From assembly GCA_000442125.1 (NCBI GenBank), contig KE546968.1, positions 647,932 to 711,931 on the forward strand: a DNA stretch of 64,000 nt. Direction: 5' to 3'. A program made the position numbers and the translations under genes. Positions within the stretch are counted from its first letter, which is position 1. Each line of letters opens with the position of its first letter. Source of the DNA: Opeltia flavorubescens. Taxonomy: Eukaryota > Ascomycota > Lecanoromycetes > Teloschistales > Teloschistaceae. The notes below the pieces were generated by a model. It had not been told where the DNA came from and did no database searches. It saw only the letters and a list, made by a program, of their open reading frames with translations. Below are positions 15,510 to 63,749 of this stretch, in pieces.

Positions 15510-15531
15510 AACAAAACTTCTCTAGGTCAAC

Positions 15532-32143: not shown

Positions 32144-33452
32144 ATGAATTGGCTACGGCAACAGTGAATCTACTGATGCAATCTTCGAAGAGAAATCTGC
32201 TGATACCGTCAGGGTAGCGAATGTTGCGGGGACGCAAGAACCAGAATATGGTCCCACAGCCATTCAATCAGTCTCGAAGCAAGCTGAACGAATTCCATAC
32301 TCCGAAGTTCAGCCGCAAGATCTAAAATGGGCAGCTATGGAGTCAACATGCGTAGAAACGCAGACCTTCTACGTAATGGCTGAGACAGGACATATTGCAA
32401 TGGCACAGGTCATCTACAATAATGTAGCGTGAGAAGTCTCCCTTGAAGTCAAGTGGGCAGTCTGTTGATAGTGCTGTGCGGATCAGGGGAATTCGGACTA
32501 CTTGCCAATTCAACACTAAGGTATTTTATCAGGACGGCAAAACGCCAAATCTATGGAGCTCGGATCCCTTGGATGCATACGGCTTTGATGAACAAAAGCT
32601 CTCCTTTTATGCTGATGGTTGTGCGGTCACATTGAACGAAGATGCCGACTCTTACTCTGTTAAATCGGCCGTAAATGAAGCGAGCATAGTCAACATTACT
32701 GTGTCTCGGACTGCCCCTGGCTTTCAGGCTGGGACAAATGGTACTACTTTCTTTGGCACAGATCCTCAAAATCCATGGGGATCCATGAGACATGTATTTT
32801 GGCCCCGCTGTCATGTGGAAGGGAGCATCGTTACTAAAGAGGGGGAAATCAACTGCAGAGGGCAGGGTATCTTCATCCATGCACTTCAGGGTATGAAACC
32901 TCATCATGCTGCTGCCAGGTGGAATTATGCCACCTTCCAATCCCCGACCTTTTCTGCAGTCATGATGGAGTACACGACACCTGTATCATATGGATCGACG
33001 GTTGTCAATGTTGGAGGTATTGCAAAGAATGGTGAGATCCTCTGTGGCGGGGCGGCAAACTCTGTGCAACATGCGCAAGTCAAAAATGACCCGGAGAACG
33101 AATGGCCCGAGCCAGGTGCTGCGAAATTCCTATGGAGTGGGAAGACGCAGGACGGCAAACATGTAGAGGCAGAGCTGGAAGGGAGCTTGGGCGATCGGCT
33201 AGATAAGATCGATGTCTTGGCAAATATTCCTGGGATACTCAAAAGCCTAGTAGGAGGAGTGGTCGGAACAAAGCCATTCATATACCAGGTAAGCAGGCAG
33301 GACTCCGACTGTTGTACGTTCGAAGGAATCCAATTTGATTTTGTGTATCGTAGTACGCTCCGATGCAGAAACTTGAGCTCAAGATTAAAATCGAAGACGA
33401 GGAACAAAAGGAAGTGGGCACGCTGTTCTCAGAAGCAGTTTTCATCTCCTGA
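32144..33452 (+). CDS. svf1: Svf1 survival factor (lipocalin-like, lipid handling)
   Basis: Svf1 family protein of 378 residues. Yeast Svf1 is needed for survival under oxidative and cold stress and has been linked to ceramide transfer between ER and Golgi. Exons are 32144-32163, 32213-32428, 32487-33288 and 33354-33452. The 20-nt first exon encodes MNWLRQQ, which with the next residues forms the amphipathic N-terminal helix expected for the family. Conserved stretches are [60 protein letters not shown] and [12 protein letters not shown]. The last exon gives [17 protein letters not shown] and a short tail. The reading frame of exon 3 runs on past its donor, which could mislead a single-frame call of the C-terminus. 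Confidence 0.92.
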
Positions 33453-33907
33453 ACGGGTGGTTTTTTATACCCGCCATTTCTGCAAATAGAAGGTTGGCTA
33501 TTCATGTTATCGAGTCACGGCGAAAGAAGCGAGCGCTTTGGGGGTCAAAGATTGAGTTCCTAGAAATATAATGTCTGATCTGAGTCTGAACCTCGACGAC
33601 GGATACGTGAATAAGTGTACCTGAATAAGGTCTTGGCTCAAACCTAATTTCGTGGTGACGCTATACTGTAAAGAGGATAGACGCATGTGACCCCATCGAT
33701 ACGCAGCTTCCCGCGAACGTGTGCGTGTATTGGGCAAAGCAGTCAATACAACAATATTCGCATCGTGAGAACCATCGAGGCAACGTATACGACGCCACCT
33801 ACTGTTACGCAATTAATATGACACCACCATCTGGATTGGTGCGTGTCAAGCGTACGGGTTCATTTGTACTCTTTGCCCTCTAAGGTACATCACTCTTCAC
33901 ATCCAGT
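33453..33907. other. Intergenic, svf1 / dynein heavy chain
   Basis: 455 bp between co-directional genes: svf1 3' end and dynein promoter. No other feature seen. Confidence 0.55.
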
Positions 33908-36900
33908 ATGGAGTTGGTCACTCCAGGGGCTAATGGCCATCTCTTGTCCCCTGTCGCTCCTGCGACTATCAGTCCTGATGCCGTCTTACATCATCTCACC
34001 GACTTACTGGAGATTACCCTCGGCGCTTCGTCTGAGGATCTGAAAAGTCATGACAGCTTGTTCTCTCCATCAAGAAAACATGATACCCTCCAACGATGTG
34101 CACGTTTTGCCTCCGAATCTCAAGTGGCTCTCTACGTCCAGAAAGATCGTATGGATGAGAACAAAGATAACGTCTTTATTACAGACGCTGCAGACAACTC
34201 AGTTCCAGGTACGCTCAGTTCTTGAATTGCAGATTGTCAAAACTCACCCTTGCGCTAGAGAAGCCGTCGTCATTTCGATATACGCTATCTTCAGAGATCT
34301 CATTTTCCTCTTCTACTGTGACATCGGTAGCTTTGCTCAAACGTCCACAACCAATTGATCCTCACGTACCCTTCGCCACACAAATCCAGGCCATTAATTT
34401 ACCGGGCCTTGCAAGCTCTAATCTGGCGGATAACAATCAAAACGGGCCGACGTCTGCTTTCGAAGTCCTTCATTCTGTCATACACCTAGCCTTGGCGCCC
34501 TATTTCAACGCATACACTAAAAGTCAGGATCTGCTTGGTACGTCTAAGGGCAGAGCCGATACCGATCTCAAAGGAGGGGTGCCGGGCACACGCCGAAAAT
34601 TAGCGGAATTGGAGCTTAGTCTCCTCCATCTACAGCAAAATGTTGAGATACCAGAACTACATCTGCCGATCCCAGAACTCGTTCAGGAAGCCATAGATAC
34701 CGCACGGGTTCGGAGAGCGAAGCCAAGCCTCGATACAATACCGCAGGAGGTTCTATCGGACAGCAAATTCCTGAACGATGTACAGAATACGGTCAACATA
34801 TGGATCAAGTCCATCCAGGCAATCACCAAATCTTCTCGAGACCCTGAAAAAGGAACTGCAGCCCAAGAGATCAACTTCTGGCTGGCAATGGAATCGGCTC
34901 TGGAAGACGTCGAAGCGCAATTAAGGACCGAAGGAGTGCAGATGACTATGGATATACTACAGCGGGCGAAGCGATTCCAAGCAACAGTCAGTTTTGGTGC
35001 AGACACAGGCCTGAAGGACGCTTCCGAGAAGGTACAAAAATATAACCAGCTTATGCGAGACTTTCCTTTAGACGAACTACTTGCGGCAACATCATTGCAG
35101 AAAGTCGAAGAAGCACTGGTTTCCATATTTACGCACCTCAACAGAAAGCTGCGGATTTGCCCATATCCTATTGCTCGCGCGCTTCCGCTTGTCACTGCAA
35201 TATCTGCGGACCTTGATTCTCTGTTACACACTCTGCTGAATGGCCGTACGCTAATTCACCTCGATTTCCGAGATTTCGAAGCTTTGATGGAGAATGCAGA
35301 CCGCATCTGGGCAAACTGGGACGAAAGCATTCGAGAGTTTACCAATGTCGCTCGCGAGGTCACTCGTCGGCGTAATGAGAAGTTCATACCGATCAAGATA
35401 TATCCTCGCCACACCAAAACTCAAGAACGTTTGAATTACATCAGAACTTTTCGTGTCAATCATGAACAGTTACAACGCACAATTGTCACAGTGCTTGGCA
35501 GCAATCAACACAACGGAGTCGCTGATTTAGAAGCCGAGGAGACTCAAGCTGTACTTGTCGAGGAAATCGGTGACGTCGATGCTGTTGACGAAGTAACTCA
35601 AGCGTACGGTGCCCTTAGGGACGTCGACGTACTAGATGTCACACCAGAGGGAACACAACTATGGGTCCAGGCCGAAATGCAGTACAATGAACGGACATCA
35701 AGAGTCGAAAACACCATCATCGCTCGCCTCAGAGATAGGCTAGCTACCGCCAAGACAGCGAGCGAAATGTTCCGCGTGTTCTCCAAATTCAATGCACTCT
35801 TCGTTAGACCGAAGATACGTGGTGCTATCAGTGAATATCAATCTCAGCTAATTGAGAGTGTCAAAACGGACATAACATCGTTGCATAATCGTTTCAAGGG
35901 ACAGTACGGTCACTCTGAGTCTCACGCCATGGCGCAGCTCAGGGACCTGCCGCCAGTAGCTGGAGCGATCATCTGGGCCAAGCAAATAGAGAAGCAACTT
36001 AATTCTTATATGAAGAAGGTTGAAGATGTTCTTGGGATGGACTGGGCGCTGCATACTGAAGGGCAGAAGCTGCAGGCTGAGACCAGTATGTTTCGCAAAA
36101 AGCTTGATACCCGTCCAATCTTCGAATCATGGTTACAAGACGTAACGAAGCGCAAGATTTCAATCGGAGGCCGACTCTTTGGTATTACAAGGAATCGAGT
36201 GACTGGAAATACACTTGAATTAATGATAAATTTTGACCCTCAGGTCATCACGCTGTTCAAGGAAGTTCGGAATCTCTCATGGTTGAATTACCAAGTCCCA
36301 CATGCTTTGACCAGTGTCTCTAAGGAGGCGAAACGAGTGTATCCATACGCCGTCAGTCTGATGGAAAGCGTGGGGATTCTTGCTCAGACAAGTCGTACGA
36401 TTGACTTGATGTCGAAAGTGTCTCCTATGTTGAATGGCTATCTTAGGAATATTCAGAAGCTGATTACTACGGGAGTGGGATTGAAATGGGAAGCCTTTGT
36501 ACATTCGTACGATGTTCCTCCGAAGCAACCAGCTTTCTCCAATGCTGTTGGCCTCCCTCGTGTCGCTTCTGGCCAAAACGAGAGCAAGCATGTACAATAC
36601 GTTCGGGATTTTGAGAGCATCACGGCTACACTGCAAAGAAAGACATTTATCTTGGAACAAGCTCATGATTCTATCACAAAATCGACGCAGGAATTACAGA
36701 ACTGCACTTATGGCATTGATGCTTTCAAAAACCAGCTGGAAGCCATCCAGACAGTAGTCGATCAGCTAAACCTGGAAGGTTATGCAAATCTGCAGCCCTT
36801 TGTTGGAATGCTTAACTTGACTATCGAGAAGCTCTTCGTCCAGCGTCTCCGTACCGCGATTCACTTGTGGATAGAGGCTTTCCTCCAAACTCCAAAAACT

Positions 36901-39900
36901 ACGGATGATCGAAGCTTACAGGAAGTCACCGAACATATTACTATCAATACACCGACGCTACATCCTCTGGTCCATGAGATTTCTATGCGGAATCAGCTTA
37001 TCCACTTAGATCCTCCTGCTGAGTTCACCCGGACGAGCTGGCTGTTACAATTGCATGAATGGCTTGGTGTCGTTTGCAACCAGCCGCGCCTTGTGGTTTC
37101 AAGGTACGAAATGAATGTTGGGGACCCAAAGATTGGTTCAGGGAGACCCACCTTTGCTTATCTACCACATCGTTGCATGGATGTTTTGTCCCAAGCATAT
37201 CGTACTATCGAGGATAAACACCGAGAAGTCGTTGAATACGTTGATAAATGGCTCCAGTTCCAGTCGCTCTGGGATCTCAAATCGGAACACATTATCGGTT
37301 CGCTTGGGGACGACCTTGCTAGTTGGCTTCAATTGTTACAGGAGCTGCGAAAGACAAGGGCAACATTTGATACTTCGGAAGCATCGCAGACTTTTGCTAC
37401 TGTTACAATAGACTACGAGCAGGTACAAACTCGGGTCAACGCTAAGTACGATCAATGGCAGCATGAGATTGTACAACATTTTGGATCTAGACTTGGGAAT
37501 CGGGTACGTGAAGTCTACGTGGAAGTGGAGAAGGCTCGAAGAGAGCTTGAAAGTCTGTCGCTCGAGGCCTCTTCCACTGCTCAAGCTGTTTCATTCATCA
37601 CCATTGTTCAGCAATCAAGAAAAAAAGTTGACGCATGGGAGCCTGAGATAGACGTATTTCGTCAAGGGCAAACTAGCCTTAGCCGGCAGCGCTATCAGTT
37701 CTCAGCCGACTGGCTATATATTGATCAAGTTGACCACCAGTGGAGTGTGTTGACCGAAATCCTGAGCCGGAAATTGAAAATAGTGCAAGACCAAACCGAC
37801 GCATTGCGCGCTAAAACAATGGCGGAGGACAAAGTTGTAGGGGATAGGATTAGTGATATAATCAAGCAATGGAACGATGAGAAGCCAATATCCGGCAATA
37901 TTCCTCCAGAACAAGCAATTCTCTCACTCAAGTCGTTCGAATCGCGACTAAACACTCTGTATGATGACTCCGAGACAGTCTCAAAGGCCAAAGAAGCATT
38001 GGATTTACCAGGATCACCGGAGACTGCACTGGGGAGCATTACCGAAGAAGTTCAAGATTTTATGTCGGTTTGGGCCGCTCTATCAACCATTTGGAAAAGT
38101 TTGAACGAGCTTCGAGAAACGCACTGGGCCGCTTTGCAGCCCCGAAAGCTACGTCAATCACTTGATGGTCTTGTTAAGATGACGAAGGAGATGCCTAGTA
38201 GGATGCGTCAGTATGCTGCCTTTGAACATATACAAGCTGTTCTGCGTCAGTACCTGAAGGTGAATCCACTGTTGAGCGACATGAAGTCTGAAGCGGTCCG
38301 TGAGCGCCACTGGGTCAAAATCTACAAAGCCCTGAAGCCTAGTAAGAGATATTCGCAGATATCCCTGAGCCTTGGAGACGTATGGGATCTGCAATTGACT
38401 GCTAGCGAAGTGATCATACGTGATATCATCGCTCAAGCACAAGGAGAGATGGCACTTGAGGAGTTCATTAAACAAGTCCGCGATACATGGCAAAATTACT
38501 CTCTCGATCTCGTCAACTACCAGAACAAATGTCGTCTCATTAGGGGCTGGGACGATTTATTTGCCAAGTGTAGCGAGCATTTGAATTCGTTGCAAGCCAT
38601 GAGACATTCCCCATACTACAAAGAGTTCGAGGAAGACGCGTCCATGTGGGAAGACAAGCTCAACCGCGTGCATGTATTGTTTGATGTGTGGATCGATGTT
38701 CAAAGACAATGGGTCTACCTGGAAGGAGTCTTTACAGGTAATGCCGATATCAAACACCTCTTGCCTGTAGAATCATCGCGCTTTCAAAACATCAACTCGG
38801 AATTTTACGCTCTGCTCAAAAAGGTCTACAAATCGCCATTGGTGCTTGATGTACTGAATATTTCGGGGGTTCAGAAATCCCTGGACCGCTTAGCGGAACT
38901 GCTCAACAAGATACAAAAGGCGCTTGGAGAATATCTGGAGCGAGAGCGCACGTCGTTTCCGAGATTTTACTTTGTTGGCGACGAAGACCTCTTGGAGATC
39001 ATCGGCAATAGTAACGATATACTGAGGATCTCCAAGCATTTCAAAAAGATGTTCGCTGGTATATCTGGTCTTCTTCTTGATCAAGAAACAAACATTCTTG
39101 GCTTCAACTCGAAAGAAGGGGAGAATGTACTTTTGAAAAAACCCATCTCACTGGCCAAAACACCCAAGATCAACGACTGGTTGGCTGCACTAGAAGGCAA
39201 CATGCGCAGCACGCTGGCGGAGCTCCTCGCCGAGGCAGTCCTAGCATTCCAGCGTTTATACGAATCGAACGAGATGGATTCTCTTGTGCTCACAGGCTAC
39301 CTTTCTCACTATCCTGCCCAGATTGTTGTCCTAGCCTCCCAAGTAGTCTGGACGACTTCTGTGTATACTGCCTTGAACGAAGGTGGTGGCGGACTACAGG
39401 AATCGCTGGCAAAGCACGTCAGGCTTCTTGAGATCCTGGCTACCGCTGTTCTCGGCGATCTGGATACATTATCCAGGAAAAAATGCGAGCATCTCATTAC
39501 CGAGTTCGTTCACCAACGCGACAGTATAAGCCAGTTGATCTCAACCCATGCATCTTCACCAATGCACTATTCCTGGCTATTGCAGCTCCGCTACGTCTAT
39601 GATCCCAACCAGGACTTTGTGAACCGCCTTCGTGTAAAGATGGCGAATGCAGACTTGACATATGGTTTCGAATATTTGGGTGTACCAGAAAGACTTATCC
39701 GCACACCACTCACTGATCGCTGTTTCTTGACCTTGACCCAGGCCATGGCCCAGCGACTGGGAGGATCGCCCTACGGTCCTGCCGGGACCGGTAAGACTGA
39801 ATCCGTTAAAGCACTCGGCGTTCAATTGGGCAGATTCACGCTTGTTTTCTGCTGCGATGACACCTTTGATTTCCAGGCTATGGGCCGTATTTTCCTTGGT

Positions 39901-42900
39901 ATTTGCCAAGTTGGAGCGTGGGGCTGTTTTGACGAATTTAATCGTCTGGAAGAACGCATCCTATCAGCAGTATCTCAACAAGTGCAAAATATCCAGCTTG
40001 CGCTTAAACGACTCGCTGAGAAAGGCGATTCTCAACTTGAACTTGCCGGCAGGCATTTCAGCGTCCACGCAAATACCGGATTATTCATCACGATGAATCC
40101 TGGGTACGCTGGACGATCCAACCTACCAGACAATCTGAAGAAGCTCTTTCGTAGTGTGGCAATGTCAAGGCCAGATAAGGAACTCATCGCTGAGGTTATG
40201 CTTTACTCGCAAGGATTCAGTCAAGCTAAAGGATTAGCCAGACAAGCTGTTCCATTCTTCGATGCCTGTGCTGTTAGATTGACGAAACAGGCCCATTATG
40301 ATTTTGGATTGAGAGCTTTAAAGAGCGTACTTATCAGCTCGGGGGGCTTGAAGCGCTCAAGGCTGACCCTAGGTAGCCAAGGACAAGTGGAGCAAGAGTT
40401 GGAACCGCAAATATTGGTTCAAAGCATCTGTGAGACTATTGCGCCCAAGCTGATCAGCGGAGACATCGATACTATGGAATGCGTCCAGAAAGAATGTTTT
40501 CCAGGCATCGAGTATGTACCATCAGACTTGGAAAATCTTCGAAAAGCCATCACAACGGAAGCCGCAGAGAAGGGATTCGTGGTCACGGAAGCGTGGATGA
40601 CGAAAATAATTCAGCTCTATCAAATTCAAGCCATACACCACGGCGTCATGCTAGTAGGACGGTCTGGCTCAGGCAAATCCGCAATCTGGAAAGTCCTGCT
40701 GCAGGCTATGCAGCGTCTGGAAGGCGTCGAGGGCGTCTACCACCTGATCGACCCGAAAGTGATGTCCAAAGAGGCCTTATACGGGAGCCTTGATAGCACT
40801 ACTCGCGAATGGACCGATGGACTTTTCACAAGTATCCTACGTAAGATAGTGGATAATCTGCGTGGAGAGGACAGTAAGCGTCATTGGATCGTCTTCGATG
40901 GCGACGTCGACCCGGAATGGGTTGAGAATCTCAACAGTGTTCTCGACGACAACAAGTTATTGACCCTTCCGAATGGAGAGCGACTCAATCTGCCTCCAAA
41001 TGTACGAATCCTGTTCGAAGTGGAGAACCTCAAGTACGCGACTTTGGCCACTGTCAGTCGATGCGGTATGGTCTGGTTTAGTGAGGACACGGTTACGTCC
41101 GATATGATGCTCTCCAACTACCTGGATGGCCTGCGTAGCTCTCTCTTCGAGGAAGCAGACGATGATACCACCGGTCGTTCTTCAGCACATTCTCTGTCGA
41201 TTCAAAGTCAAGTCGCCAATGTCGTACACCGAAGTCTAGCAGTCGAGGGTCTTCTGCGCACTGCGCTATCGGAAGCTCAGGGGCTGGGCCACATAATGGA
41301 ATTCAGTGAGATCCGATGCGTTAATACTATGTTTTCTCTCATCAACAGGAGCTGTAGAGCTATCATAGCCTACAATATCCAGCATGACGACTTTCCCCTC
41401 GAACAGGATCAGATCGAAGCCTTCATTTCTAAGAAACTGCTTCTAGCGCTCACATGGGCCTTCGTTGGGGATTGCCCTTTAACTGAACGCAAGACCTTTG
41501 GAGAATACATATGCGGTCTCACCACCGTTGATTTGCCTCTTCTCGGCGAGGCTTCCTCTATCATAGACTACGATGTTTCTCTACCAAATGCAGAGTGGAC
41601 CCCATGGCGATCCCAAGTACCAAGCATTGACGTTAATACCCATTCCATTGTTCAGACTGACGTTGTGATCCCGACCTTAGATACTGTTCGGCACGAGGAT
41701 ATTCTATATTCTTGGCTAGCCGAGCATAAACCGCTCGTTTTATGTGGCCCACCGGGTTCAGGCAAAACCATGACATTATTTGCTGCACTCCGGAAATTGC
41801 CCGATATGGAGACTGTTGGCCTTAATTTCTCGAGCGCAACTACTCCTGAACTTCTGATAAAAACATTCGACCAGTACTGCGAGTATCGCAAGACGCTCAA
41901 CGGTGTAGTCATGTCACCCAGTCAAGTTGGGCGATGGCTGGTTCTCTTCTGTGATGAAATCAACCTTCCAGCACCAGACAAGTATGGCAGCCAACGAGTA
42001 ATCTCTTTCTTACGGCAGCTCGTGGAGCAGAATGGTTTCTGGAGGACCTCTGATAAGACATGGGTATCACTTGAGCGAATACAGTTTGTTGGTGCTTGCA
42101 ATCCTCCAACGGACGCTGGACGACATGCTATGGGTTCTCGCTTCTTGCGGCACTCGCCCATCGTCATGGTGGACTATCCTGGTGAACAGTCGCTGCAGCA
42201 AATTTACGGGACGTTCAACAATGCAATCTTGAAGATAATACCCAACCTGCGGGGCTACTCCGACGCACTCACTAAGGCCATGGTCCAACTATATGTCGAG
42301 TCTCAAGCTCGATTCACTCCTCAAATCCAGCCTCATTATATCTACTCCCCGCGTGAGCTCACGAGATGGGCTCGAGGAATATATGAGGCTATCAAGCCTT
42401 TGGAATCGCTACAATTAGAAGGACTTGTAAGGCTCTGGGCTCACGAGGCATTACGCTTGTTCCAGGATCGCCTAGTCTCGGAGCATGAACGCGAATGGAC
42501 ACGAGCGAGCGTTGACCGGATTGCCCTTGAACATTTCCCAAATATTGACCAAATTGTAGCCTTGCAGACCCCGATTCTCTATTCCAATTGGCTTTCTAAG
42601 AACTACATTCCAGTCGAGCGCGAACAACTACGGGAATTTGTCAAAGCAAGACTAAAGACATTTTGCGAAGAAGAGGTAGATGTACCACTCATACTTTTCA
42701 ACGATGTACTTGAGCATGTTCTCCGTATCGATCGAGTCTTCCGCCAACCACAGGGCCATTTGATTCTGATCGGTGTCAGTGGGAGCGGCAAGACTACTCT
42801 TGCTCGTTTCGTTGCTTGGATGAATGGCTTGAAAGTCTTCCAGATCAAGGTGCACGGAAAATACTCGGCACAAGACTTCGACGAGGATCTACGGGACGTG

Positions 42901-45900
42901 CTGCGGCGTTGTGGATGCCGAGGTGAGAAGGTATGCTTTATCATGGACGAGTCCAACGTTCTCGATTCTGCATTCCTAGAACGCATGAATACTCTTCTTG
43001 CCAACGCAGAGGTTCCTGGACTTTTCGAGGGCGATGAGTTCTCAACGCTCATGACTGCCTGCAAAGAAGGGGCCCAGCGCCAGGGTTTGCTTCTAGACTC
43101 CCAGGAAGAATTGTACAAATGGTTTACCCAACAGATCATCAAGAATCTACATGTCGTCTTCACCATGAATCCACCCGAGGATGGCCTATCGTCCAGAGCT
43201 GCCACGAGTCCGGCCTTGTTCAATCGATGCGTCTTAAATTGGTTTGGTGATTGGTCCAAACAAGCTCTATTCCAGGTTGCTTCAGAGCTAACTCAGTCTG
43301 TGGATCTCGATCGACCCAATTTTGTGGCGCCTGAGAGCATTCCTGTTGCTTACGAGGACCTTACCTTACCGGCCTCGCATCGCGATACCGTCGTTAATGC
43401 TATGGTGTACGTTCACCAGTCGATCCATCGCTTCAATCGACGGCTTGAAAAGCAACAAGGTCGGGTGACCTACCTGACCCCTCGGCATTTCCTGGATTTC
43501 GTGGCTCAGTATGTCCGTTTGTTCCGCGAGAAGCGAGAAGACTTGGAAGAACAGCAGCGCCACTTGAATGTTGGTCTAGAGAAGCTTCGCGACACGGTCG
43601 ATAAGGTTAGGGATTTGCGAGCAAGCCTAGCACAGAAGAAGAGTCAATTACAATTGAAAGACACCGAGGCCAACGAGAAGTTACAGGGAATGATTGCCAA
43701 CCAACGGGAAGCTGAACAACGCAAGTCTACTTCCCTAAAAATACAGGCTGAACTTGAGAAGCAAGAGGAAGAAGTGGCGAAGCGGAAAGAAATTGTGAGT
43801 GCAGATTTGGAGAAGGCAGAACCAGCAGTCCTCAATGCGCAAGAAAGTGTTAGCAACATCAAACGCCAGCACCTCACCGAGGTCAGATCGTTGACCAACC
43901 CACCAACCGGCGTCAAACTTGCCCTGGAAGCCGTATGTACCCTCCTTGGCCATAAAGCCGATAGTTGGAAAACCATTCAAGGTATTGTGCGGCGGGACGA
44001 CTTTATCGCGAGTATCGTCGGTTACGACAATGAACGACAGATGACAAAAAGCCACCGAATGAAGATGCAGAACGATTTTCTATCGAAGGACGATTTCACT
44101 TACGAGAGGGTGAACAGAGCGAGTAAAGCTTGCGGTCCACTTGTACAATGGGTCGAAGCCCAGGTTGAATATTCAGCTATCCTCGATCGTGTTGGACCTC
44201 TACGAGAAGAAGCGGAACAACTAGAGGACAGCGCGATGCAGACCAAGGCCGAAGCACAGGCGATAGAAAAACAGATCACAGTCCTGGAGGACAGTATAGC
44301 AAGATACAAGTCTGAGTATGCTTCTTTGATCAGCGAGACGCAGGCCATCAAAACAGAGATGTCCCGTGTGGAATTCAAAGTCGACCGTAGCGTCCGACTC
44401 CTTGACAGCCTCTCGTCCGAAAGAGCCAGGTGGGAGCACGGAAGCAAAACGTTCGAAACCCAGATCAGCACCATTGTGGGCGACGTACTGGTAGCATCCG
44501 CTTCACTTGCCTACAGCGGTCTGTTTGATCAACAATTCCGCAAGGCAATGACCGACGACTGGTCGGGCCAATTAACCTTGTCAGGCATAGAGTACAAGAC
44601 TCCCAACCCAATGACAGAGTACTTGTCGACTGCCGACGAGCGGTTGAAGTGGCAAGGGAACAATCTGCCGGTTGACGATCTTTGCACGGAGAACGCCATC
44701 ATCCTGAAGCGCTTCAATCGCTATCCTTTGATCATCGACCCATCAGCGCGGGCTATGGATTTTCTGCAGAATGAGAACAAGGGCCGGCGTTTAATAGTCA
44801 CAAGCTTTCTTGATGACTCGTTTGTCAAGCAGCTAGAGAGCGCTCTCCGTTTTGGCAACCCAATCCTGATACAAGACGCGGAGCATCTGGATCCAATTCT
44901 AAACCATGTGCTCAATAGAGAATATCAAAAGACCGGCGGCCGTGTGCTGATCCAACTGGGCAAGCAGGAAATTGACTTCTCACCGGCATTCAAATTGTAC
45001 CTCACAACGCGTGATCCTTCTGCGGTGTTTCCGCCAGATGTATGCAGTCGAACTACTCTCGTCAACTTCACCGTTACCCGAAGCAGTCTCCAGACGCAAT
45101 CATTGGACGATGTACTCAAATCTGAACGTCCAGATGTGGACCAGCGGCGGTCGAACCTGGTCAAGATGCAGGGCGAATTCAATACACATCTCCGGAAGTT
45201 GGAAAAGCGCCTACTCCGAGCCTTGAACGAATCAACGGGAAATATACTGGACGATGATCTGGTGATCGAGACACTCGAGACCTTGAAAAAGGAAGCGGCC
45301 GACATTGCGAAGAAGATGGTAGAGACCGAAGGAGTTATGGTTGAAGTCAATACAATCACCACCCAGTATAACGCTATCTCCCGAGCCTGTAGCGCAGTGT
45401 ATACTGTCCTGGAACAACTCTTCCAGCTTAATCACTTCTACCAGTTCTCTCTTCAGTACTTTATTGACATTTTCCGTGCCGTTTTAAATGACAATACGAA
45501 ACTCCAGGGTGTCACCGATCACAATACCCGATCAAACATAATCCTACGCAATCTTTTCGTGAGTACTTACCAGCGAACGTCATTAGCTCTTCTCCAGAGA
45601 GACCGTATCACGTTTGCAATTTTGCTGGCCCGAGCCTCTCCTATGGTAACAGACAAAGCCGCAATTGAGACGATTCTAGACCAGACAGTGTCAGGTAACG
45701 ACGTCTCGGATGACAGACAGCTGAGACGTGAGATACTTGCCCAAGCCTCCCAGATGGAGATTTTGCAACCGCGTTTCACCGAGATTTCTGAAGATCAATG
45801 GGATCGTTTTTGCACAGAAGAGGTGGCAGAGAATGTAGTGCCATCCGTCTGGGATGATGGCACCGATCTGATAGGCCAGCACCTTCGCTCCGTCCTCCTT

Positions 45901-47078
45901 GTAAAGATGCTTCGCATCGATCGATTTGTACCCGCTGTGGAGAAGTTCATAGCTGCCGTCTTCGGCTCCGGCTTTTTCGAAGGAAGCGAAGATCTCGAGA
46001 GGACCGTTTCGCAATTGACGTCCGCGACGCCAATCGCCCTGAGCTCCAATCCCGGTTTTGACGCAAGCTACAAGGTCAACAATTTGGTTGACAAGATCCA
46101 AGTTCGATGCTCCAACATTGCCATGGGCTCCAATGAAGGCCCGGGTAGCGCTGACAAAGCTCTCGGCGAGGCCGCAGCGACAGGACATTGGGTACTGATC
46201 AAAAATGTACATTTGGCGCCTGGATGGCTTCAAGGGCTGCAAAAGCGACTTAGCTCGCTTAGGCCACACCCGGATTTCCGATTGTTCCTGTCCATGGAGA
46301 CTAGTCCGAGGATTCCAGTCAACCTCCTCCGCACCTCTCGCATCCTTATGTACGAACAACCTGCAGGGGTGCGGGCCAACATGAGGGACTCGTTATCAAC
46401 ACTCGCGACTCGAGCAAGCAAAGAGCCGGTCGAGAAGGCTCGTTTGTACCTTTTGTTGTCATTTCTGCACGCGGTAATTCAGGAAAGATTACGATATGCA
46501 CCAGCGCTGGGTTGGAAGGCCTTTTGGGAATTCAACGATAGCGATGTGAGTATTGTGTGGTGCTACATCTGCCTTTGATACGTGTTACTAAATCTATATA
46601 GTACGAATGTGCAGCATTCATTATTGATACGTGGCTCGAGACAATCGCCCACGGTCGAACGAACGTTGCGCCCGTCAAGATACCATGGGACCTCCTACGG
46701 ATTCTCATCACGGAAACCTATGGAGGCAAGATCGACGACGAAGAAGATTTCGGACAGTTATCAGACATTGTCAAGCAGTGCATCACGCCTGCCGCGTTCG
46801 AGGACGGTCATCAATTGGTTGAAGGTGCCAAGGGACAGGAGGCGGAGATGTACAGCGAAAGAGACGGAGGTCTCACAGTGCCAGAAGGCACGACGATGGC
46901 TGACTTTATGAAGTGGGTGAATGGCTTGCCAGAACGCGAGCCACCGACATATCTAGGGTTACCGGCGAATGCGGAGAAAGTTTTGTTGGTGGGACATGGG
47001 AAAGAAACGATTGCGGACGTTGGTCGTCTTTCGGGAATACTAGACGAAGGGGAGCAGCTGGCATCAGAAGAGGAATGA
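33908..47078 (+). CDS. nudA: Cytoplasmic dynein heavy chain (NudA type)
   Basis: Minus-end microtubule motor heavy chain, needed in hyphae for nuclear distribution and endosome transport. Exons are 33908-34208, 34259-46545 and 46602-47078, giving 4354 residues, in line with fungal NudA at about 4340. Six AAA modules follow the N-terminal tail. P-loops are GPAGTGKT (about residue 1940, with Walker B CFDEFNR), GRSGSGKS (2234), GPPGSGKT (2596, with LFCDEINLP) and GVSGSGKT (2939, with FIMDESN). The stalk coiled coils flank the microtubule-binding domain near residue 3300, where [15 protein letters not shown] and [16 protein letters not shown] are seen. The protein ends about 50 residues after [18 protein letters not shown], so the large C-terminal cap of animal dyneins is absent. 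A single 12.3-kb exon is intact, arguing for strong selection. Confidence 0.97.
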
Positions 47079-48593: not shown

Positions 48594-49690
48594 ATGATGC
48601 CAAGCTTCTCCTCCCACCTATCTCAACTTCCCTCCTCCTGCCAATTCTCCACCTCCCCAACGCTTCGCTCTTCCCCCTCCCCCTCCTCTGCATACCAATC
48701 CGACCATCTCCCTACCCTAACCACCTACCCTACAACCTCCCCTTCCGAACGCGCCTCCGCCCTCCACCTCGTTGCCGACTCAATCGCCCAACAACGTCAA
48801 TCCACCGCCTCCGCCCTCCTCACCCATCCCTACCCTCTCTCCGCCTCAATCCTTCTCCTCGCCATCCTATCACAAATCCTCAGTTTCCCTCTCTTCCTAA
48901 CCACCGCCGCCGGCCTGATTATGACCCTCCTCCTAATCGTCCGCTGGATCGCAAGCCCCTACCTCGCGCTCGCAGAGGGGATCGGATATCCCTGGCTGGA
49001 GAACAGCCATCATTTCCTCTACACCCCACCGCTCATGATGATGGGATCCGGGGGCAAGAAGAGGAGAGGTGGTGGAAGCGGGAGCGGAGGACATAGTCGG
49101 AGTAGTTCGACGGGAAGTACCGGAAGCAATGGGTCTGGGAGCGGGAACGTGGATCCAGNGCCGAATTCTACCGCTATTGCTCATCATCACAACGTCAAGA
49201 ATGGAGGAGGTGTGAAACGTTCCCGCAATAATAGTAATTCCTCCACTGCTTCTACGACGAGGGATAGGAATGATACTGGGATTGAGAATGTTGTCCTTAT
49301 TACTAAATGGGGGGATTCGGAGATTATCGGCGCGCTTGTCATGAGGGTTTTCAAGAGGGAGAGGAAGGCTGTGATAAGGGCGTGGACGGTCAAGATACGT
49401 TATCGGGGTAATGGCGTCGGAAGGGGACTGTTGGAAGAAGGAGTCAGAGTTGCGATGCAGAGGGGTTGCGTTGCTGTTGGGGGGAAGGGGGTGGAGTTTG
49501 AGGGGGCGCATGCTAGTGAGTTTTTCTGTTTTCTTACGGAGGTCCTGTGAATGGACTGCTGACTCGATGTTGTTTGACAGATTCGCACCGAGTGCTGCCT
49601 GAATTGTTTAATCGAGGAGTTGAGAGGAGGGAGAAGAGGGCGAGAGCAGTTTTGGAGGAGATTGTGGACGATGTCGGGGGAGCGAGATGA
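48594..49690 (+). CDS. Membrane-anchored GNAT-like N-acetyltransferase, uncharacterised
   Basis: Probable acetyl-CoA-dependent acetyltransferase of 343 residues. Exon 1 is 48594-49515, the intron 49516-49580 and exon 2 49581-49690. Residues 1-65 are Ser/Pro/Thr-rich. Two hydrophobic segments lie near 80-100 and 102-122 (ASILLLAILSQILSFPLF and TAAGLIMTLLLIVRWIA). A Gly/Ser/Asn-rich linker with basic residues spans about 150-220. The GNAT core follows, with VVLITKWGDSEIIGALVMRV, the acetyl-CoA motif A as IRYRGNGVGRGLLEEGVRVA, and a final helix HRVLPELFNRGVERREKRA. The hairpin of two membrane segments before a GNAT fold recalls the NAT8 layout. One ambiguous base (N) lies at 49159 in the linker. 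Substrate unknown. Confidence 0.75.
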
Positions 49691-50251
49691 TCATACTCGA
49701 GGTTTGCTCTATGGAAAGATGGCGGAAGGATAGTTTCGGTGGGGCATGATGATTACATGGTTGGATAAAGATAATGACAGATAGAGAGGAGAGATGACAC
49801 GACACGAATAATGATTAGAGTAATGAAATGATTCTTATTTGGATGCTGCCGGCGTCATTTATAGTATCTTGGCAACTCAAATAAATCGACCCACACCATT
49901 AGCAGCTCTCCATGCTGGGCAGACCAATTGTGATGCAGTGATACCTTCCAGACCGATCCTCTACACAAATGTGGTTTTTGCAGAGGAGAAAATTTCCCGG
50001 CCTCTTTGACATGTCCGTATTCGATGCCGAGAACCACCTTGTAGACAACATCTGGTTTTGTCCTTTCATCATCCACACACCCGCAGTATATTTTAGCCTT
50101 GCTTATGATGATAAAAATGCAGTAGTCTCCTAACATCAGAACCCCGAGCCAACGCCGAATATAAGCTATGTGGGTATCTTCGATAAAAACACTAAAGCCG
50201 TGTAGATGGGTGACTGAGGGTAATTATTTAGGATCGAAGCCTACACACAGT
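49691..50251. other. Convergent 3' region, GNAT / histone H4 variant
   Basis: 560 bp between converging genes. A 93-codon minus-strand frame at 49855-50136 (starting MLGDYCIFIIISKAKIYCG) has a proper ATG and stop but no recognised domain. It could be a small gene or chance; I rate it below one in three. Confidence 0.4.
49855..50136 (-). CDS. Possible small uncharacterised protein
   Basis: A 93-residue frame with an ATG start, mixed composition and several aromatic residues (LHHNWSAQHGELLMVWVDL). No signal peptide beyond a short hydrophobic start and no known motif. It lies downstream of the H4 variant gene on the same strand and may just be part of its 3' untranslated region. Confidence 0.25.
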   Translation of the reverse strand: MLGDYCIFIIISKAKIYCGCVDDERTKPDVVYKVVLGIEYGHVKEAGKFSPLQKPHLCRGSVWKVSLHHNWSAQHGELLMVWVDLFELPRYYK

Positions 50252-51337
50252 TTAGCAGAATTTCCTCGAACTGGAAAAAGCGAGCGGAGGGATAGTACCA
50301 TAGATTGGCTTTCCCAGCTGTTGACCGAACCAGGACCAAAGTTAGCATGGCTCTCTGCAATTACACATGAATATCGACCGTGGTTCACGTACTCGTCTTA
50401 GTGCAAAAATAACCTACGTTTATGTCAACATTGCGCACAACCACCTACAGAATGTAGCGACAACTCACATCAGAAACCGTCACCGCTGATCAGGTTAGAA
50501 GCCAAATCAGTCATTCTGTTGCTTGCGACATGAGGTAGTGGAAGTTCTGACTTACTCTTCCGCTGTGCGTGATCAAGAAAGATGGTGCAGTCTTTGAGAA
50601 TCTAAATAGGGAAATCATTCATCAGTCATCAGAACATATGTCATTAGTAGGAACGGGAAAACCTACAACTTCCAGACGAGCCCTCATAGCTTTCCGTACA
50701 TCTTCATAGATACCGCTTGAAATACGTTTCACCCCTCCTCTCCTCGCCATTCGGCTATCGTGTAGAGTATCAGCTGTTGAAGATTGTGTGATTTTTCCTC
50801 AGTGTATCCTCCGGGCTATATTCCACCATTGCAACATTATAGTTCTTTCAAGGCCTGGAAGATACAGGTAGGCTTTGGTTGCTCTCCTCTCTATTGGAAT
50901 AGATTTTGTATAGAATTATATGGTCGTACCGTATATCNCCTTTCGCTGTTGTTGTCGGCTTGATCAGTGACCGTCACCACTATTGAGTGAGATTGAAGGA
51001 GGTGAATTGCTTTGAACGTACTGATACCACGAATAGTGTCTCGAGAAATTTTCCTGTATAAGACCAGTCGTTAACATAGGTCAACTCACCAGCCAAACGT
51101 CCAGCTTGTTTCTGATGAAGGACCAAGGATCAAGGGAGAAGTGTTATAGCATCAATGAGCGAGACCGCGAAAGCGGAGACGGGAAGACCAATTGACAAGG
51201 GAGACCACGGTCCGAGCATACCTGTGACGACGAAAGGCAGTGCCCTTTCCAAGTCCCTTGCCTCCTAGGCCAGTTTTCCCACCCGTGGTTTTACTGGGCC
51301 ACGGCCCATTGAAAGAAGGTACCATGCGGGGCGCCAT
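50252..51337 (-). CDS. Divergent histone H4 variant, seven exons
   Basis: A histone H4-fold protein of 134 residues, far from canonical H4. Exons on the minus strand are 51337-51222, 51053-51022, 50773-50667, 50601-50556, 50485-50469, 50413-50393 and 50317-50252. All junctions are GT-AG and the total is 405 nt. The tail has an 18-residue N-terminal extension, then GGKTGLGGKGLGKG (equivalents of K8 and K12 kept), with F in TAFRRHRK where H4 has K16. The fold shows RDTIRGIT, ARRGGVKRISSGIYEDVRK, a helix ending FLDHAQRKTVT (H4: YTEHAKRKTVT) and DVIFALRRLGKPIYGT (H4: DVVYALKRQGRTLYGF). A C-terminal extension replaces the final GG. Canonical fungal H4 is about 103 residues and almost invariant, so this is a variant, perhaps like Neurospora hH4v. 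The exons are tiny and one N lies in intron 2 (50938). Lies head-to-tail downstream of the XPF-like gene. Confidence 0.85.
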
Positions 51338-51773: not shown

Positions 51774-54557
51774 TCACCAACGTGCATCCAGCACCTTCCC
51801 AACTCTTTCGAGTATACCCCTACCACCAAGCAAACCTTCAAATCTTTGACACCTTTCCTCTGGGCTCGTGAGTATGAGCCTGCGTAAGTCCCAAGCACTG
51901 TTATCATTATCTTCAGCCGCTTTCATGTCTGCCAGTATTACCTGCGCCGCGAATGCATTCATTCCCGCTTGACGCAGAAAAACTTCCCACTGCGTTTCTT
52001 CTTGAAGTAACGTGACCGTATCCTCAGAAGAATACTTGACCATGAGCGATGCGATCCAAGCAGCCAGTGCTGAAATGTTACCATCTACCAGAATCATTTC
52101 GCTTTCGCTAAGGATAGGTATATGATTTAAGAATGCAATCAGAGAGGTCAGAGCTTCGCAGTCGCTCTCGTCAAGGGATTCGAGAGAAGAATCATCGTCA
52201 TTCGACATCAGACTGGAACGACTGACGAGGATGACCAGGCGTTCATACCTGGTAGCTGTTCGTCCAATCCGCTCGCGCACCAACGAGTGCGTGGTCTGAC
52301 CAGGTAAGGACCGTTGCTTGATCTTTGGTAGGGACGTAATGATGAGTCCTGTGCTTGGTGAAAGGATAAGATCTGCTTCGTCTGACAAGTCATCAGCATT
52401 TTTTGGAGGGACTGGACAGCCTTCTGCTCCCGCGATTTGGGGGTGGTATAGTGTAAAGTCCCTCTCGATATATTCTGCCGAAGGATATAACTCCTTGATG
52501 TGGTGTGCTAACCTTCGATTCGAGAGAAAGCTGGTAGAAGCCACAAAGTATCGCCGGGCATCTGATACCCTGAGCTGGGGTTTGGGCATTTCGAGATGCG
52601 ACTTCTGCGCAACATTCTGTTCCGTAGGAGGATATGCCGTTCGTGCGTCTGCTGAGCTTGTTGCTGTCGGTTGAGGAGGCTGTACCTTCTTCGGCTCGTG
52701 ACTTTTTCGTAACTCGCCTCGCCGCACTCCAACAAACTGATCCAATGCATCGGTTACTGCATATTCCATTTCCGCAGAACCAGGTCTATTGAGTGGTACC
52801 GTTGTATCTATGGTTGGATGTGGCAATTCTCTGGATGAGTGTGTGCCATTTCTGGCAACTTTCGTCGTTGGTAAGTAGCCACTACCATTGCTTTCCTCAA
52901 CTACTCCCTCACGGTGCAATTCTAGGTTTCGCTTCTTAATAAGTGACTGTATATCGTTCGCTGGCGGGAAAACACCATATGCTAACTCTTCCTCATCAGA
53001 TTCATGTATTTCGTCCAGAATCCTCAAGCCTGGGGGCTTCCACGTCAGTGTATCTGGATCGAGGGGTTCGGGGTCTTCGATGTATGCGGAAAGAGAGCCA
53101 TCGTCCTCAATGCTATCCTGAAGCTCGAATCGGCCAAGCGACATTGGGAAGGGCACCCAAGACAATTTCGTCTTCTCAGTTTCACGGTTGATATCCCAGC
53201 TAGGCACTTCTTTGAGATATTCCTCTTTGATGTCACACATGAATTTGATCATCCACTCACTCATGGTGCCTGATACAGGAAGGATCCACGGAGGTATTGT
53301 TTTTGCAAAATCCATCACAGGAACAGGAACCCGGCTCGTGGTGTCCGCCTCTTGTAATTGCTCCTGCTCGATCTCTCGATCTACCTTTGCAGCTATTGGC
53401 GCAATTTGTTCAGCAAAGAGCATGTCGATGTCCTCCGGCGACAAATCTTCTGGATCAGCGATTGGAGGTGGAAGAACCGGAATTATATCATGCATTGCTT
53501 CACTGAACGATACCTTCTTAATATCCCAAGGAGGTGGCCTGTCGGACGCAGGTGGTGTGAGGGGACCTTCGATTTTCAGATTCTCTCGACAATTTCGTTT
53601 TTGAAGGCGAGGCGGGGGTGTGTCGCTGATACCCTTGAGTGGGCTGTAGAGATCGCCAATGCTATTGATATCAGATATTGGTGTTTGCTGATCACCACGA
53701 CCTAGCTTTGCACGTCGCTCAATCACGTCTGCGAGATTCGTCTCAAGCAGAAGGTCGTTAATGCTATCTAACTCTTGCCTCGCTGGGCTTGACCTTTCTG
53801 ATAGAAGATCGAGGTGGCCAGTCTCCGATGAGGGTTCGTATGGGTGTGGTGATGGTGATCGAGGGAGTAGAGGAGGCGTAATGGGATCTCGAACTCTATT
53901 CTGCTGATCCTTTAGCTTGGTATTCGATTGTAATGGATGTAAGTGCAATACTCTTTTGTACGTCGGTAGCACGTTTTCGAATGTGATTTCTTCTGCGTCC
54001 TGTACACGCACATCTAGTGCACTCCGCATATACGCCAAGACGTCCCTGCCCATTTCTACTTTCTCATTCTGAGCCTTTTGAAAGACCAATTCTGGAAAAC
54101 CCTGGTAGCTGGAGGGCCATCCGAAGCCTTCATCACGTTCGTCATCAACTTTTTCAAGAGGGAAGAATTCATTTTCTAGATCTGGGTCGTCTCGACGGAC
54201 AAAGTTGAGCATATCGAGGTCATGATCTGAACGAAGCAAAGGTAGCTCATGCTTGAGATTACGAATGCGATGGATCTGGGAGAGGTCTACACGCTGGTCC
54301 TCGAATTGACAGTTCTCGTATTGTTTTGCATTAGTGACGGCTAGTAGAGCTGAGGCTTCTTTGACTGCTACTAATCTTTCTGCTCTAGGCGATGCAGCCC
54401 TTTCTCGTAACTGTTGCCATATCATTTCCTCGTCTAATTGGGAAGTTGAGTTGTCGGGTGGTGGAAGGACTTCCAACGGACTGCGTTCTAAATGATTGAC
54501 GCTCAACCCATAATGGCGGGCATATTCGACAAGTGACGGCTCTTTGCACTGTGACAT
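51774..54557 (-). CDS. Large disordered protein with possible XPF-like C-terminal domain
   Basis: Single-exon protein of 927 residues. The in-frame ATG at 54557 (MSQCKEPSLVEYARHYGLSV) is used because the open frame further upstream has no ATG. Residues 1-640 are mostly low in structure, with acidic and proline-rich segments such as PITPPLLPRSPSPHPYEP and a conserved-looking VSFSEAMHDIIPVLPPP. From about residue 665 there is a folded region beginning SDARRYFVASTSFLSNRRL, with LILSPSTGLIITSLPKIKQ and RYERLVILVSRSS. It ends in a helical segment with RRLILTSPEERCQRFEGL and GGRGILERVGKVLDARW. The order beta-rich nuclease-like fold then paired helix-hairpin-helix suggests the XPF family without an obvious nuclease motif, as in meiotic Zip2/SHOC1. 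This is an inference; the safe label is conserved fungal protein of unknown function. Confidence 0.7.
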   Translation of the reverse strand: MSQCKEPSLVEYARHYGLSVNHLERSPLEVLPPPDNSTSQLDEEMIWQQLRERAASPRAERLVAVKEASALLAVTNAKQYENCQFEDQRVDLSQIHRIRNLKHELPLLRSDHDLDMLNFVRRDDPDLENEFFPLEKVDDERDEGFGWPSSYQGFPELVFQKAQNEKVEMGRDVLAYMRSALDVRVQDAEEITFENVLPTYKRVLHLHPLQSNTKLKDQQNRVRDPITPPLLPRSPSPHPYEPSSETGHLDLLSERSSPARQELDSINDLLLETNLADVIERRAKLGRGDQQTPISDINSIGDLYSPLKGISDTPPPRLQKRNCRENLKIEGPLTPPASDRPPPWDIKKVSFSEAMHDIIPVLPPPIADPEDLSPEDIDMLFAEQIAPIAAKVDREIEQEQLQEADTTSRVPVPVMDFAKTIPPWILPVSGTMSEWMIKFMCDIKEEYLKEVPSWDINRETEKTKLSWVPFPMSLGRFELQDSIEDDGSLSAYIEDPEPLDPDTLTWKPPGLRILDEIHESDEEELAYGVFPPANDIQSLIKKRNLELHREGVVEESNGSGYLPTTKVARNGTHSSRELPHPTIDTTVPLNRPGSAEMEYAVTDALDQFVGVRRGELRKSHEPKKVQPPQPTATSSADARTAYPPTEQNVAQKSHLEMPKPQLRVSDARRYFVASTSFLSNRRLAHHIKELYPSAEYIERDFTLYHPQIAGAEGCPVPPKNADDLSDEADLILSPSTGLIITSLPKIKQRSLPGQTTHSLVRERIGRTATRYERLVILVSRSSLMSNDDDSSLESLDESDCEALTSLIAFLNHIPILSESEMILVDGNISALAAWIASLMVKYSSEDTVTLLQEETQWEVFLRQAGMNAFAAQVILADMKAAEDNDNSAWDLRRLILTSPEERCQRFEGLLGGRGILERVGKVLDARW

Positions 54558-54925
54558 GATTTGATGCTGGAACTCTAAAGAAAGGTAGATGGATGGGGGC
54601 GTATCAATGCTTTGCGGACGTCGCAACGAAATTAGATACAGAGACGCCAAGCCATGGCGAACAATTAATACGTAGATTATGAGTCCAAAACAGGCATGAG
54701 TTAAGAGAATGCGTAACGTTTCGAGAATAGGAGAGAACTTATGGAAATGTTTAGATACATCTAAGATAGCATTTATTTGATATGTAGAAGCTGTTCCACA
54801 TTATCTTACACCAATCCCAGACGCCCACGCTAAGTCGCAAGATCAAACCAAACCAACAAGGAAAGGGATCTAAGATTCAGATCACTATTGTAGGGCAATT
54901 ACCAGCTACCCAAGCACCAAAGAAT
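54558..54925. other. Intergenic, TauD / XPF-like gene
   Basis: 368 bp between two minus-strand genes, AT-rich near 54650-54800. Promoter of the XPF-like gene and 3' end of the dioxygenase gene. Confidence 0.55.
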
Positions 54926-61352: not shown

Positions 61353-62372
61353 ATGCATCCCAGTAGGCAACTGCTATCCTAACATAGTGCCGAAAGCAGT
61401 CTATTCACTGCTATTAAAAGTAGGCTGAATAAATGTATGGATACCGTCGCATCCTCTCCTATGTATAGGACATCAATCGAATGCGTAATGAAGTCGATAT
61501 TATGGAGACCAATGAGGTACTGAAAATAAGCTCTTGAAAGTGATTTTGGAGGCGTTGCGGGGCAGACTAGTGAGTAAGGAAGGTGCAGCCCCTGATTTAA
61601 GTTATCCGCCTCGCCGGTGCCATCCCGTCTGTTTCGAAACCATGTCAGCAAACGAATAAGACGGCTCCTCGTCGATTGGTGGTGCTCCTACCTCCCCCTG
61701 TGCCTCCATCCTCCTTGATCTTATTTGAACACGTCTTGACCCAATCACTCTGGTGAACTCTCCTCGGCTCATCTCGCATGTATGAGGAAGGGTGTGGCCT
61801 AGACTGATGAAAAGCTGGGGTACAGCTGCCTGCGATGTGCTTGCAAATCCAGTGGCAGACGGAAAGCAGTGAACCTAGAGAAGATCACTTATTCACCAGG
61901 ATGATGCGCAGCCTAGTGGGCCGCCGGTCGTAGGTTCCCCCTGAGTCTAATTGAACTTTGCCTTCTCCTTGTACTAGATCAGCTCTAATCCCGCCTGTTG
62001 TTTCTTGCTTCCTCCTCTCATTCACACTCACATCACTCGATTCCTGTCGACTTTGGTCACATTCCGTTCATTTTTGGATCCTTGAAGGAACAGTTTCATT
62101 CATTTACGTCCTGTTGACGGGCAAGCTCGCATAAACAAACTAGTCTCTTATTTGTTTCAAACAATCCAGCTCATAGTAACCAGACCTTGTTTTGATCCAC
62201 CCCCAGCTCTCGACGTCTTTCTGTTTCTTCGAGATCAGAGATCTTCTTTCCCATCACCCTCCTTTGTCCTCAGCAACTCAGCTTTGCTGTACTCACGTTC
62301 ATTCCATCGCTCGTCGATCGAGTTACGGCTACAAACTAAAAGTACCAATACATTGAATCTACCTCAAGCATC
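61353..62372. other. Intergenic, TYW1 / AA9 LPMO
   Basis: About 1 kb upstream of a secreted-enzyme gene. The last 350 bp are C/T-rich, typical of a long fungal 5' leader. Long upstream control regions are usual for regulated LPMO genes. No gene or RNA recognised. Confidence 0.55.
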
Positions 62373-63749
62373 ATGCAGCTCTTACAATCAAACTCTTTGC
62401 TAGTCGCGGCGACTATCTTCAGTGCTGCAACTGCTCATACCACTTTCACTAACTTCTACGTCGACGGGGCACCTCAGGGCGACGGAACATGTGTCCGGAT
62501 GAGCAACAACATTCCGGAGGCCACCTTTCCTATCCGGCCTATCACAAGTCAAGATATGGCTTGTGGTGTCAATGGCAACAAGGGTGTTGCACGCATCTGT
62601 CCTGCCAACTCTGGCTCCCAGCTGACCTTTAACTTCCGTGACTGGCCCGACGGATCTCAGCCGGGCTCTCTTGACAAATCACATATGGGTCCTTGCAGCG
62701 TTTACATGAAGAAGGTGGACAATGCCGCTGCTGACAACAACGCCGCTGGTCCAGGATGGTTCAAAATCTTCGAGGAGGACTATGACAATTCAAGTGGACA
62801 GTGGTGCACTTCCAAGATCATGGCAAATGATGGCAAGCTGTCTGTCAACCTTCCCACCGACCTTGCAGGCGGCTACTATCTTGTTCGCCCTGAGCTGCTT
62901 GCTTTGCATCAAGCGGACAAAAATCCTCCGGATCCCCAGTTCTACGTCGGCTGCGCCCAGATCTTCCTCCAATCATCCGGTTCAGCCGCTCCCAAGGATA
63001 CTGTCTCTATCCCAGGTTACGTCAGCATGCAAAACAAGGGCATGACCTTCGATATTTGGACCGCCAAAGGTCAAATCTCATTTCCCCAATATGGCCCTTC
63101 AATCTACAAGAGTGGCTCGTCCAAACGTGACATCGAGATTCGCACGACAGAGCTCAAGCAAACCTTGGGACTGAAACCTGCTAATTGCATTATGGAGAAC
63201 GATAACTGGTGTGGCTTGAAATTGCCCAGCTACACTGATGAGGGAGGCTGCTGGGCTTCTTCCCAAACATGCTGGGACCAAGCCAAGACATGCTACGACT
63301 CCGCCGGTCCCGTGGGCTCAAAGAATTGCAAGAATTGGGAATCTTACTGCGACTCCGTTAAGAATGCCTGTGGAAGTGGCAATTTCAATGGACCACCGAG
63401 CGCGCAGTCTTTCATGCCCACTGAACCATCCAGACTCGCATCATCCGGATCAAGCTCTGTTGCCCCAACGTCCGGCAATACTGACTCTCAGCCTTCCCAG
63501 AGTGCATCTTCACCTTCACAAGGGGATAATTCAGTTAAAGGTGGATCAGTCGATACATGTGGTAGCAACGGTGGACTGAAGTGCGCGAGTGGCCTTTGTT
63601 GCTCGTCGCACGGATATTGCGGTACCAGTAGCGATTATTGCGGAAGCGGATGTCAGTCTGCCTTTGGCAAATGCTCAGGCAGCTCCAAGCACAAGCGACT
63701 TCATATCCTTGGACGCCCCCACGCTCATCTCTTGGAATGGAAGGCATAA
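62373..63749 (+). CDS. AA9 lytic polysaccharide monooxygenase with C-terminal CBM18
   Basis: Secreted copper enzyme of 458 residues, single exon. The signal peptide ends ATA, leaving mature His1 in HTTFTNFYVDG, the copper-binding N-terminus. The second copper His is in DKSHMGPCSVYMKK. The distal His and axial Tyr are in LLALHQ and PQFYVGCAQIFL. After the AA9 core (to about residue 225) there is a cysteine-rich helical segment (residues 265-335, with CWASSQTCWDQAKTCYDS). A Ser/Thr/Pro linker follows, then a hevein-type CBM18 with CGSNGGLKCASGLCCS, GYCGTSSDYCGSGCQ, normally a chitin binder. AA9 enzymes usually oxidise cellulose or hemicellulose, so the chitin-binding module is notable. An arginine-proline-glutamate replaces the common RHE before the LLALH stretch. 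Confidence 0.92.
   Translation: MQLLQSNSLLVAATIFSAATAHTTFTNFYVDGAPQGDGTCVRMSNNIPEATFPIRPITSQDMACGVNGNKGVARICPANSGSQLTFNFRDWPDGSQPGSLDKSHMGPCSVYMKKVDNAAADNNAAGPGWFKIFEEDYDNSSGQWCTSKIMANDGKLSVNLPTDLAGGYYLVRPELLALHQADKNPPDPQFYVGCAQIFLQSSGSAAPKDTVSIPGYVSMQNKGMTFDIWTAKGQISFPQYGPSIYKSGSSKRDIEIRTTELKQTLGLKPANCIMENDNWCGLKLPSYTDEGGCWASSQTCWDQAKTCYDSAGPVGSKNCKNWESYCDSVKNACGSGNFNGPPSAQSFMPTEPSRLASSGSSSVAPTSGNTDSQPSQSASSPSQGDNSVKGGSVDTCGSNGGLKCASGLCCSSHGYCGTSSDYCGSGCQSAFGKCSGSSKHKRLHILGRPHAHLLEWKA

Follow-up and report, generated by a model that had tools for sequence, protein, structure and literature searches.

Histone H4 is among the most constrained of proteins. The closest described counterpart of the gene reported here is H4E, an H4 variant that is found in most of the Pezizomycotina species examined, with losses in, for example, Penicillium, and that includes the Neurospora variant (Flipphi et al. 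2024, PMC10878826; what we cite from this paper comes from the available part of its text). In A. nidulans H4E is nuclear, pairs with H3 and is expressed under nitrogen starvation, and its deletion had no detected phenotype (PMC10878826). As the Aspergillus deletion has no phenotype, the H4E group is, in that part of the text, without a demonstrated function. Trees of the short H4E proteins are reported to be unstable (PMC10878826). Other H4 variants are the H4E of Glomeromycota, whose only intron is located one base away from intron 1, and, in other, distant organisms, the trypanosome H4V and the human H4G (PMC10878826); H4.V of Oryza is also an H4 variant. Among the matches listed in a search of the openly licensed literature for fungal H4 variants, Flipphi et al. 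2024 was alone on the subject, and in the part of PMC6703697 at hand hH4v receives a passing mention. The initial annotation of the present locus had suspected a neglected fungal variant group, which is less neglected than it thought given that a dedicated paper appeared in 2024 (PMC10878826).

The DNA analysed here is a 64,000-nucleotide stretch of the Opeltia flavorubescens genome (the window). Its minus strand carries, from 51337 to 50224, a gene for a divergent, intron-split histone H4-like protein, which we consider an H4E candidate. Our corrected model has nine exons and eight GT..AG introns and encodes 123 residues in a frame that is open throughout; its splice sites are predicted from the DNA and, since GT and AG were demanded during model building, the integrity of the splice dinucleotides is partly a matter of construction. 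Exon 1 (51222-51337, 116 nt) encodes an N-terminal extension and the H4 tail core (GGKGLGKGTAFRRHR) and ends at the donor GTATGC. It is followed, on the same strand, by exon 2 (51022-51053, 32 nt, entered in phase 2, KISRDTIRGI), exon 3 (50930-50945, 16 nt, phase 1, TKGDIR), exon 4 (50667-50754, 88 nt, phase 2, RMARRGGVKRISSGIYEDVRKAMRARLEV), exon 5 (50556-50601, 46 nt, phase 0, ILKDCTIFLDHAQRK), exon 6 (50469-50485, 17 nt, phase 1, TVTVSD), exon 7 (50393-50413, 21 nt, phase 0, VIFALRR), exon 8 (50299-50317, 19 nt, phase 0, LGKPIY and the first base of a Gly codon) and exon 9 (50224-50240, 17 nt, phase 1, GFDPK and a TAA stop). An N at position 50938, inside exon 3, falls in a codon that reads Gly with any base; the whole window has two N bases only, this one and another at 49159. 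When the window was searched with a degenerate DNA pattern for the H4 tail, one match came up, against zero across 100 shuffles. Scans of the 64-kb window for tRNA and Rfam families gave no matches, and a scan for bacterial promoters, a type of scan not applicable to fungi, found nothing upstream of the gene.

This model differs from the seven-exon structure first proposed. Spliced in that way, the DNA does give a 134-residue open frame with matches to histone H4 in the PDB (E 1.9e-28 for the best), but the structure was wrong at two places. Its second intron (248 nt) encloses the overlooked exon 3 (50945-50930), which is flanked by AG and GT, the next exon starting at 50754 after an AG. Inclusion of these 16 nt turns ITDTLHDSRMARR into ITKGDIRRMARR, gapless against ITKPAIRRLARR; over helix 1 the corrected protein ITKGDIRRMARRGG replaces ITDTLHDSRMARRGG and is gapless against ITKPAIRRLARRGG, so that the disturbed helix-1 region was a splicing artefact. 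The 14-residue C-terminal tail of the earlier protein was likewise artefactual, produced by an unspliced 58-nt intron (50298-50241) retained in its last exon. This phase-1 intron comes after TATG, has the ends GTACTATC...CTAAACTGTGTGTAG and, once removed, yields YGFDPK and a stop. Because it leads into exon 9, the gene ends at 50224, outside the interval 50252-51337 assigned to it in the initial annotation. Two shuffle tests, both devised once the hits had already been seen, addressed these features. For exon 3, the 267 nt searched were shuffled 20,000 times with dinucleotide content preserved, and 2 shuffles contained a 16-nt exon between AG and GT with four or more of six identities. For the C-terminus, an intron of 45-110 nt leading to GF and then to a stop within six residues was produced by 0.8% of 20,000 shuffles. 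Since the seven-exon model interrupts helix 1 with a gap and ends in a tail that does not resemble H4, it was replaced. A further tiny exon considered within 51221-51054 (AAACAAGCTGG...) was dropped by eye; exon 1 joined to 51053 reads HRKISRD, gapless against HRKVLRD.

The N-terminal extension claimed earlier is present in the sequence and would add about 19 residues to the protein, provided that translation begins at the first ATG, as predicted; the start codon is, however, unproven, and a second in-frame ATG lies four codons after the first. The C-terminus is one residue longer than that of canonical H4 (YGFDPK versus YGFGG).

A phmmer search of the PDB with the corrected protein gave an E value of 8.4e-33 over query residues 20-120, the score of the best H4 match rising from 102.2 bits for the seven-exon model to 116.3 bits. 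The best 60 of the 95 PDB matches were all labelled histone H4, one of them bearing an H2A label too, which supports the initial reading of an H4 variant gene. Identity to vertebrate-type H4 is 57/97 aligned residues (about 59%), without gaps from K20 to YGF, and 42/77 within the fold (residues 24-100). Between residues 53 and 74, 18 of 22 positions are changed with respect to canonical H4, those kept being R55, L62, E63 and D68. The tail core GGKGLGKG is kept (K8, K12 and K20 are present), as are RHRK and ARRGGVKRIS. On the other hand K5, K16, K59, K77, K91, Y72, Y88 and R95 are changed. The loss of K16 had been reported as a replacement by Phe; the loss stands, but a clean assignment to Phe is not possible because a one-residue insertion allows either Arg or Phe, depending on where the gap is placed (GTAFRRHRK versus GGAKRHRK). 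R35, R36, R45, H75, R78, K79, T80, R92 and Y98, which we take to be DNA or octamer contacts, are unchanged. The replacements F61R, L49G, Y72F, Y88F and R95K presumably sit in conserved parts of the fold, and we counted them against the reading of the gene as a functional orthologue. Likeness to canonical H4 lies in the gapless alignment, the tail motif and several of the presumed DNA contacts.

The intron layout differs from that of canonical H4 genes (PMC10878826). Published H4E genes have introns in phases 2, 1, 2 and 0, between which lie exons of 29-32 (exon 2), 16 and 88 nt, after which phase-0 introns bound a 63-nt exon that is split 45 + 18 in Eurotiomycetes and is, according to the text, a single exon in the Pezizomycotina classes outside them; a 21-nt exon is given in a figure legend, and early-diverging classes and Lecanoromycetes have a phase-1 intron 19 nt past the last phase-0 intron (PMC10878826). 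In the window gene the exons measure 32, 16, 88, 46 + 17, 21 and 19 nt, with phases 2, 1, 2, 0, 0, 0 and 1 plus one extra intron, the 32 nt of exon 2 falling inside the published range. Following the available text, with exon 2 at 32 nt, all seven published positions are found among the eight introns; the exon lengths 32, 46 + 17 and 21 and their phases predate our reading of the H4E paper, while the two corrections (the 16-nt exon and the C-terminal intron) followed it, so that those intron matches are not blind and the blind part consists of the other five matches and the extra intron. When eight introns were placed at random 200,000 times with a free offset, one placement matched five of the seven positions and none matched more. 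In the figure legend, intron 4 is followed by exons of 60, 18 and 21 nt (PMC10878826); read literally, this leaves four of the seven positions matching, a number reached by 93 of the 200,000 random placements. We take the legend's 60 nt to be 45 nt plus five extra Aspergillus codons. The extra intron (50486-50555, minus strand) divides the 63-nt exon into 46 and 17 nt. Its site is one base away from that of the 45|18 intron, which Flipphi et al. describe as confined to Eurotiomycetes (PMC10878826), and either intron sliding or independent gain may account for it. Contrary to Eurotiomycete H4E, the window gene lacks the codon insertion and has the 3' phase-1 intron of early-diverging classes and Lecanoromycetes (PMC10878826).

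The gene order nudA-hheA-svf1 is found in Aspergilli, and the synteny is kept in Eurotiomycetes and Dothideomycetes (PMC10878826). Both neighbours are present in the window. An svf1-type gene in one open frame (32428-33489, plus strand, frame limits only) matches Pfam Svf1 (E 1.4e-50) and Svf1_C (E 1.8e-51). It adjoins a nudA-type dynein heavy chain (DHC_N1, DHC_N2, AAA_6 and other Pfam domains), whose coordinates (34171-46578, plus strand) are those of its main open frame, 4135 codons without interruption. The H4E candidate lies 3.6 kb past this frame, and a frame with a GNAT (acetyltransferase) domain (E 3.4e-6) lies between the two. The order is therefore svf1-dynein-acetyltransferase-H4E, differing from the published one in that H4E is placed past dynein instead of between its two neighbours. 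Directly upstream of the gene, on the same strand, a 1008-codon open frame (51774-54800, minus strand) has a DUF7102 and a SAM-like domain.

Elsewhere in the window, the two parts of ATP citrate lyase are encoded by separate genes with divergent transcription, one for the CoA-ligase and citrate-synthase part (12501-14012, minus strand) and one for the ATP-grasp and citrate-binding part (15526-16900, plus strand), an arrangement that we take to be an ascomycete trait. A basidiomycete source, which the many introns of the H4 gene had first suggested, was discarded in view of this arrangement, of the 4135 codons that the dynein gene carries without a break, and of the introns and neighbours typical of H4E. 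A Het-C heterokaryon incompatibility protein is encoded at 9458-11701 (plus strand), with nearly the whole profile matched (E 7e-267), and an AA9 lytic polysaccharide monooxygenase with a C-terminal chitin-binding domain (Chitin_bind_1) at 62340-63749 (plus strand), its best PDB match being labelled NCU01050, presumably a Neurospora locus tag.

Taken from sequence, the window gene is very probably a functional orthologue of the ascomycete variant H4E (hH4v, hheA). The support for orthology comes from introns and neighbours. With H4E/hheA of A. nidulans and other Pezizomycotina, as far as the available text describes them, the gene has in common the intron positions and phases, a predicted longer N-terminus, a changed K16, the basic patch and the proximity of dynein and svf1; many H4E proteins have Arg or a non-polar residue in place of K16 (PMC10878826). 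The C-terminus of A. nidulans H4E is seven residues longer than canonical, against one here (PMC10878826). The initial annotation had also proposed kinship with Neurospora hH4v, and this now appears probable: intron positions and neighbourhood tie the gene to H4E, and N. crassa hH4v (H4v), with which we compared it by description only, is named as an H4E orthologue by Flipphi et al. (PMC10878826). One scan each of the collections viral_contigs and genome_contigs, neither of them fungal, returned no relatives.

The gene could instead be an H4 variant that arose independently and gained introns at places similar to those of ascomycete H4E. Its extra intron and rearranged gene order would fit such an origin, as would its pattern of divergence: in the available text H4E tails are the parts that diverge most (PMC10878826), whereas here the tail core is better kept than the fold and residues 53-74 are rewritten, a reversal of the general trend. 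Nonetheless, seven intron positions with their phases (four by the literal legend) would have had to be reached a second time, with dynein heavy chain and svf1 close by, and we regard this origin as improbable.

The gene could also be a canonical H4 copy that is decaying into a pseudogene, the alternative raised in the initial annotation, and its low identity for an H4, its very short exons and its heavily altered 53-74 region are what such a copy might show. We simulated neutral decay from canonical H4 down to the same identity, with random starting codons and a vertebrate-type H4 as reference instead of the host's own. Stop-free sequences remained in 13.4% of 5000 runs, and the joint chance under decay fell to about 6e-7 once estimated terms were added for frameshifts, with indels assumed to be ten times rarer than substitutions, and for splice dinucleotides. 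The latter term is generous, the model having been built with GT and AG as a requirement. Moreover, the mean BLOSUM62 score at replaced sites is +0.28, versus -0.63 (s.d. 0.25) in decay, and none of the 672 stop-free runs scored as high. The nine-exon open frame, GT..AG at 8/8 introns, the conservative nature of the replacements and an intron layout common to H4E all speak against decay, which is very improbable; the gene is most likely real.

Finally, that the gene encodes another histone-fold protein (CENP-T, CENP-S or TAF-like) instead of H4 is scarcely credible: its best Pfam matches are indeed CENP-T_C, TAF and CENP-S, TAF alone exceeding its cut-off, but a canonical H4 control matches the same three families, CENP-T_C best, and GGKGLGKG, RHRK, ARRGGVKRIS and the PDB labels all point to H4. 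Pfam separates H4 poorly from these families because the control matches them too. The Histone family itself (PF00125) gave no match to the corrected protein at 0.001; the seven-exon version matched it at E 0.0026 and the canonical control at 1e-4, below cut-off.

If the window gene is an H4E, its product would enter the nucleus and pair with H3, as in Aspergillus. It would probably be deposited outside the bulk replication-coupled route, perhaps in starved or resting cells. The result would be a less common type of nucleosome, its H4 tail out of reach of acetylation at K5 or K16 but with the basic patch (RRHRK) still positive. Keeping this charge while lacking both acetylation sites, such nucleosomes would remain compact and unresponsive to control by K16 acetyltransferases and deacetylases. 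The altered helix 2, which we take to be the H3-facing helix of H4, would affect how strongly the protein pairs with H3 or which chaperone it uses. This scheme of an H3-H4E minority nucleosome seems to us the likeliest mechanism, but as a whole we put it forward only tentatively, by analogy. More doubtful still is the idea that H4E has become an H3-pairing specialist in this lineage, as a kept tail core and a rewritten helix 2 (18/22, including F61R) might suggest; if true, such a specialist may favour a particular H3 or chaperone and so mark a separate nucleosome class.

Very short exons cause histone genes to be misread, as happened at this locus. The gene described here would be a strongly diverged, apparently intact addition to the described H4E family, and it leaves the role of H4E unsolved. 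That an H4 variant of unknown role is kept across a fungal subphylum, when H4 is so constrained, is a genuine puzzle.
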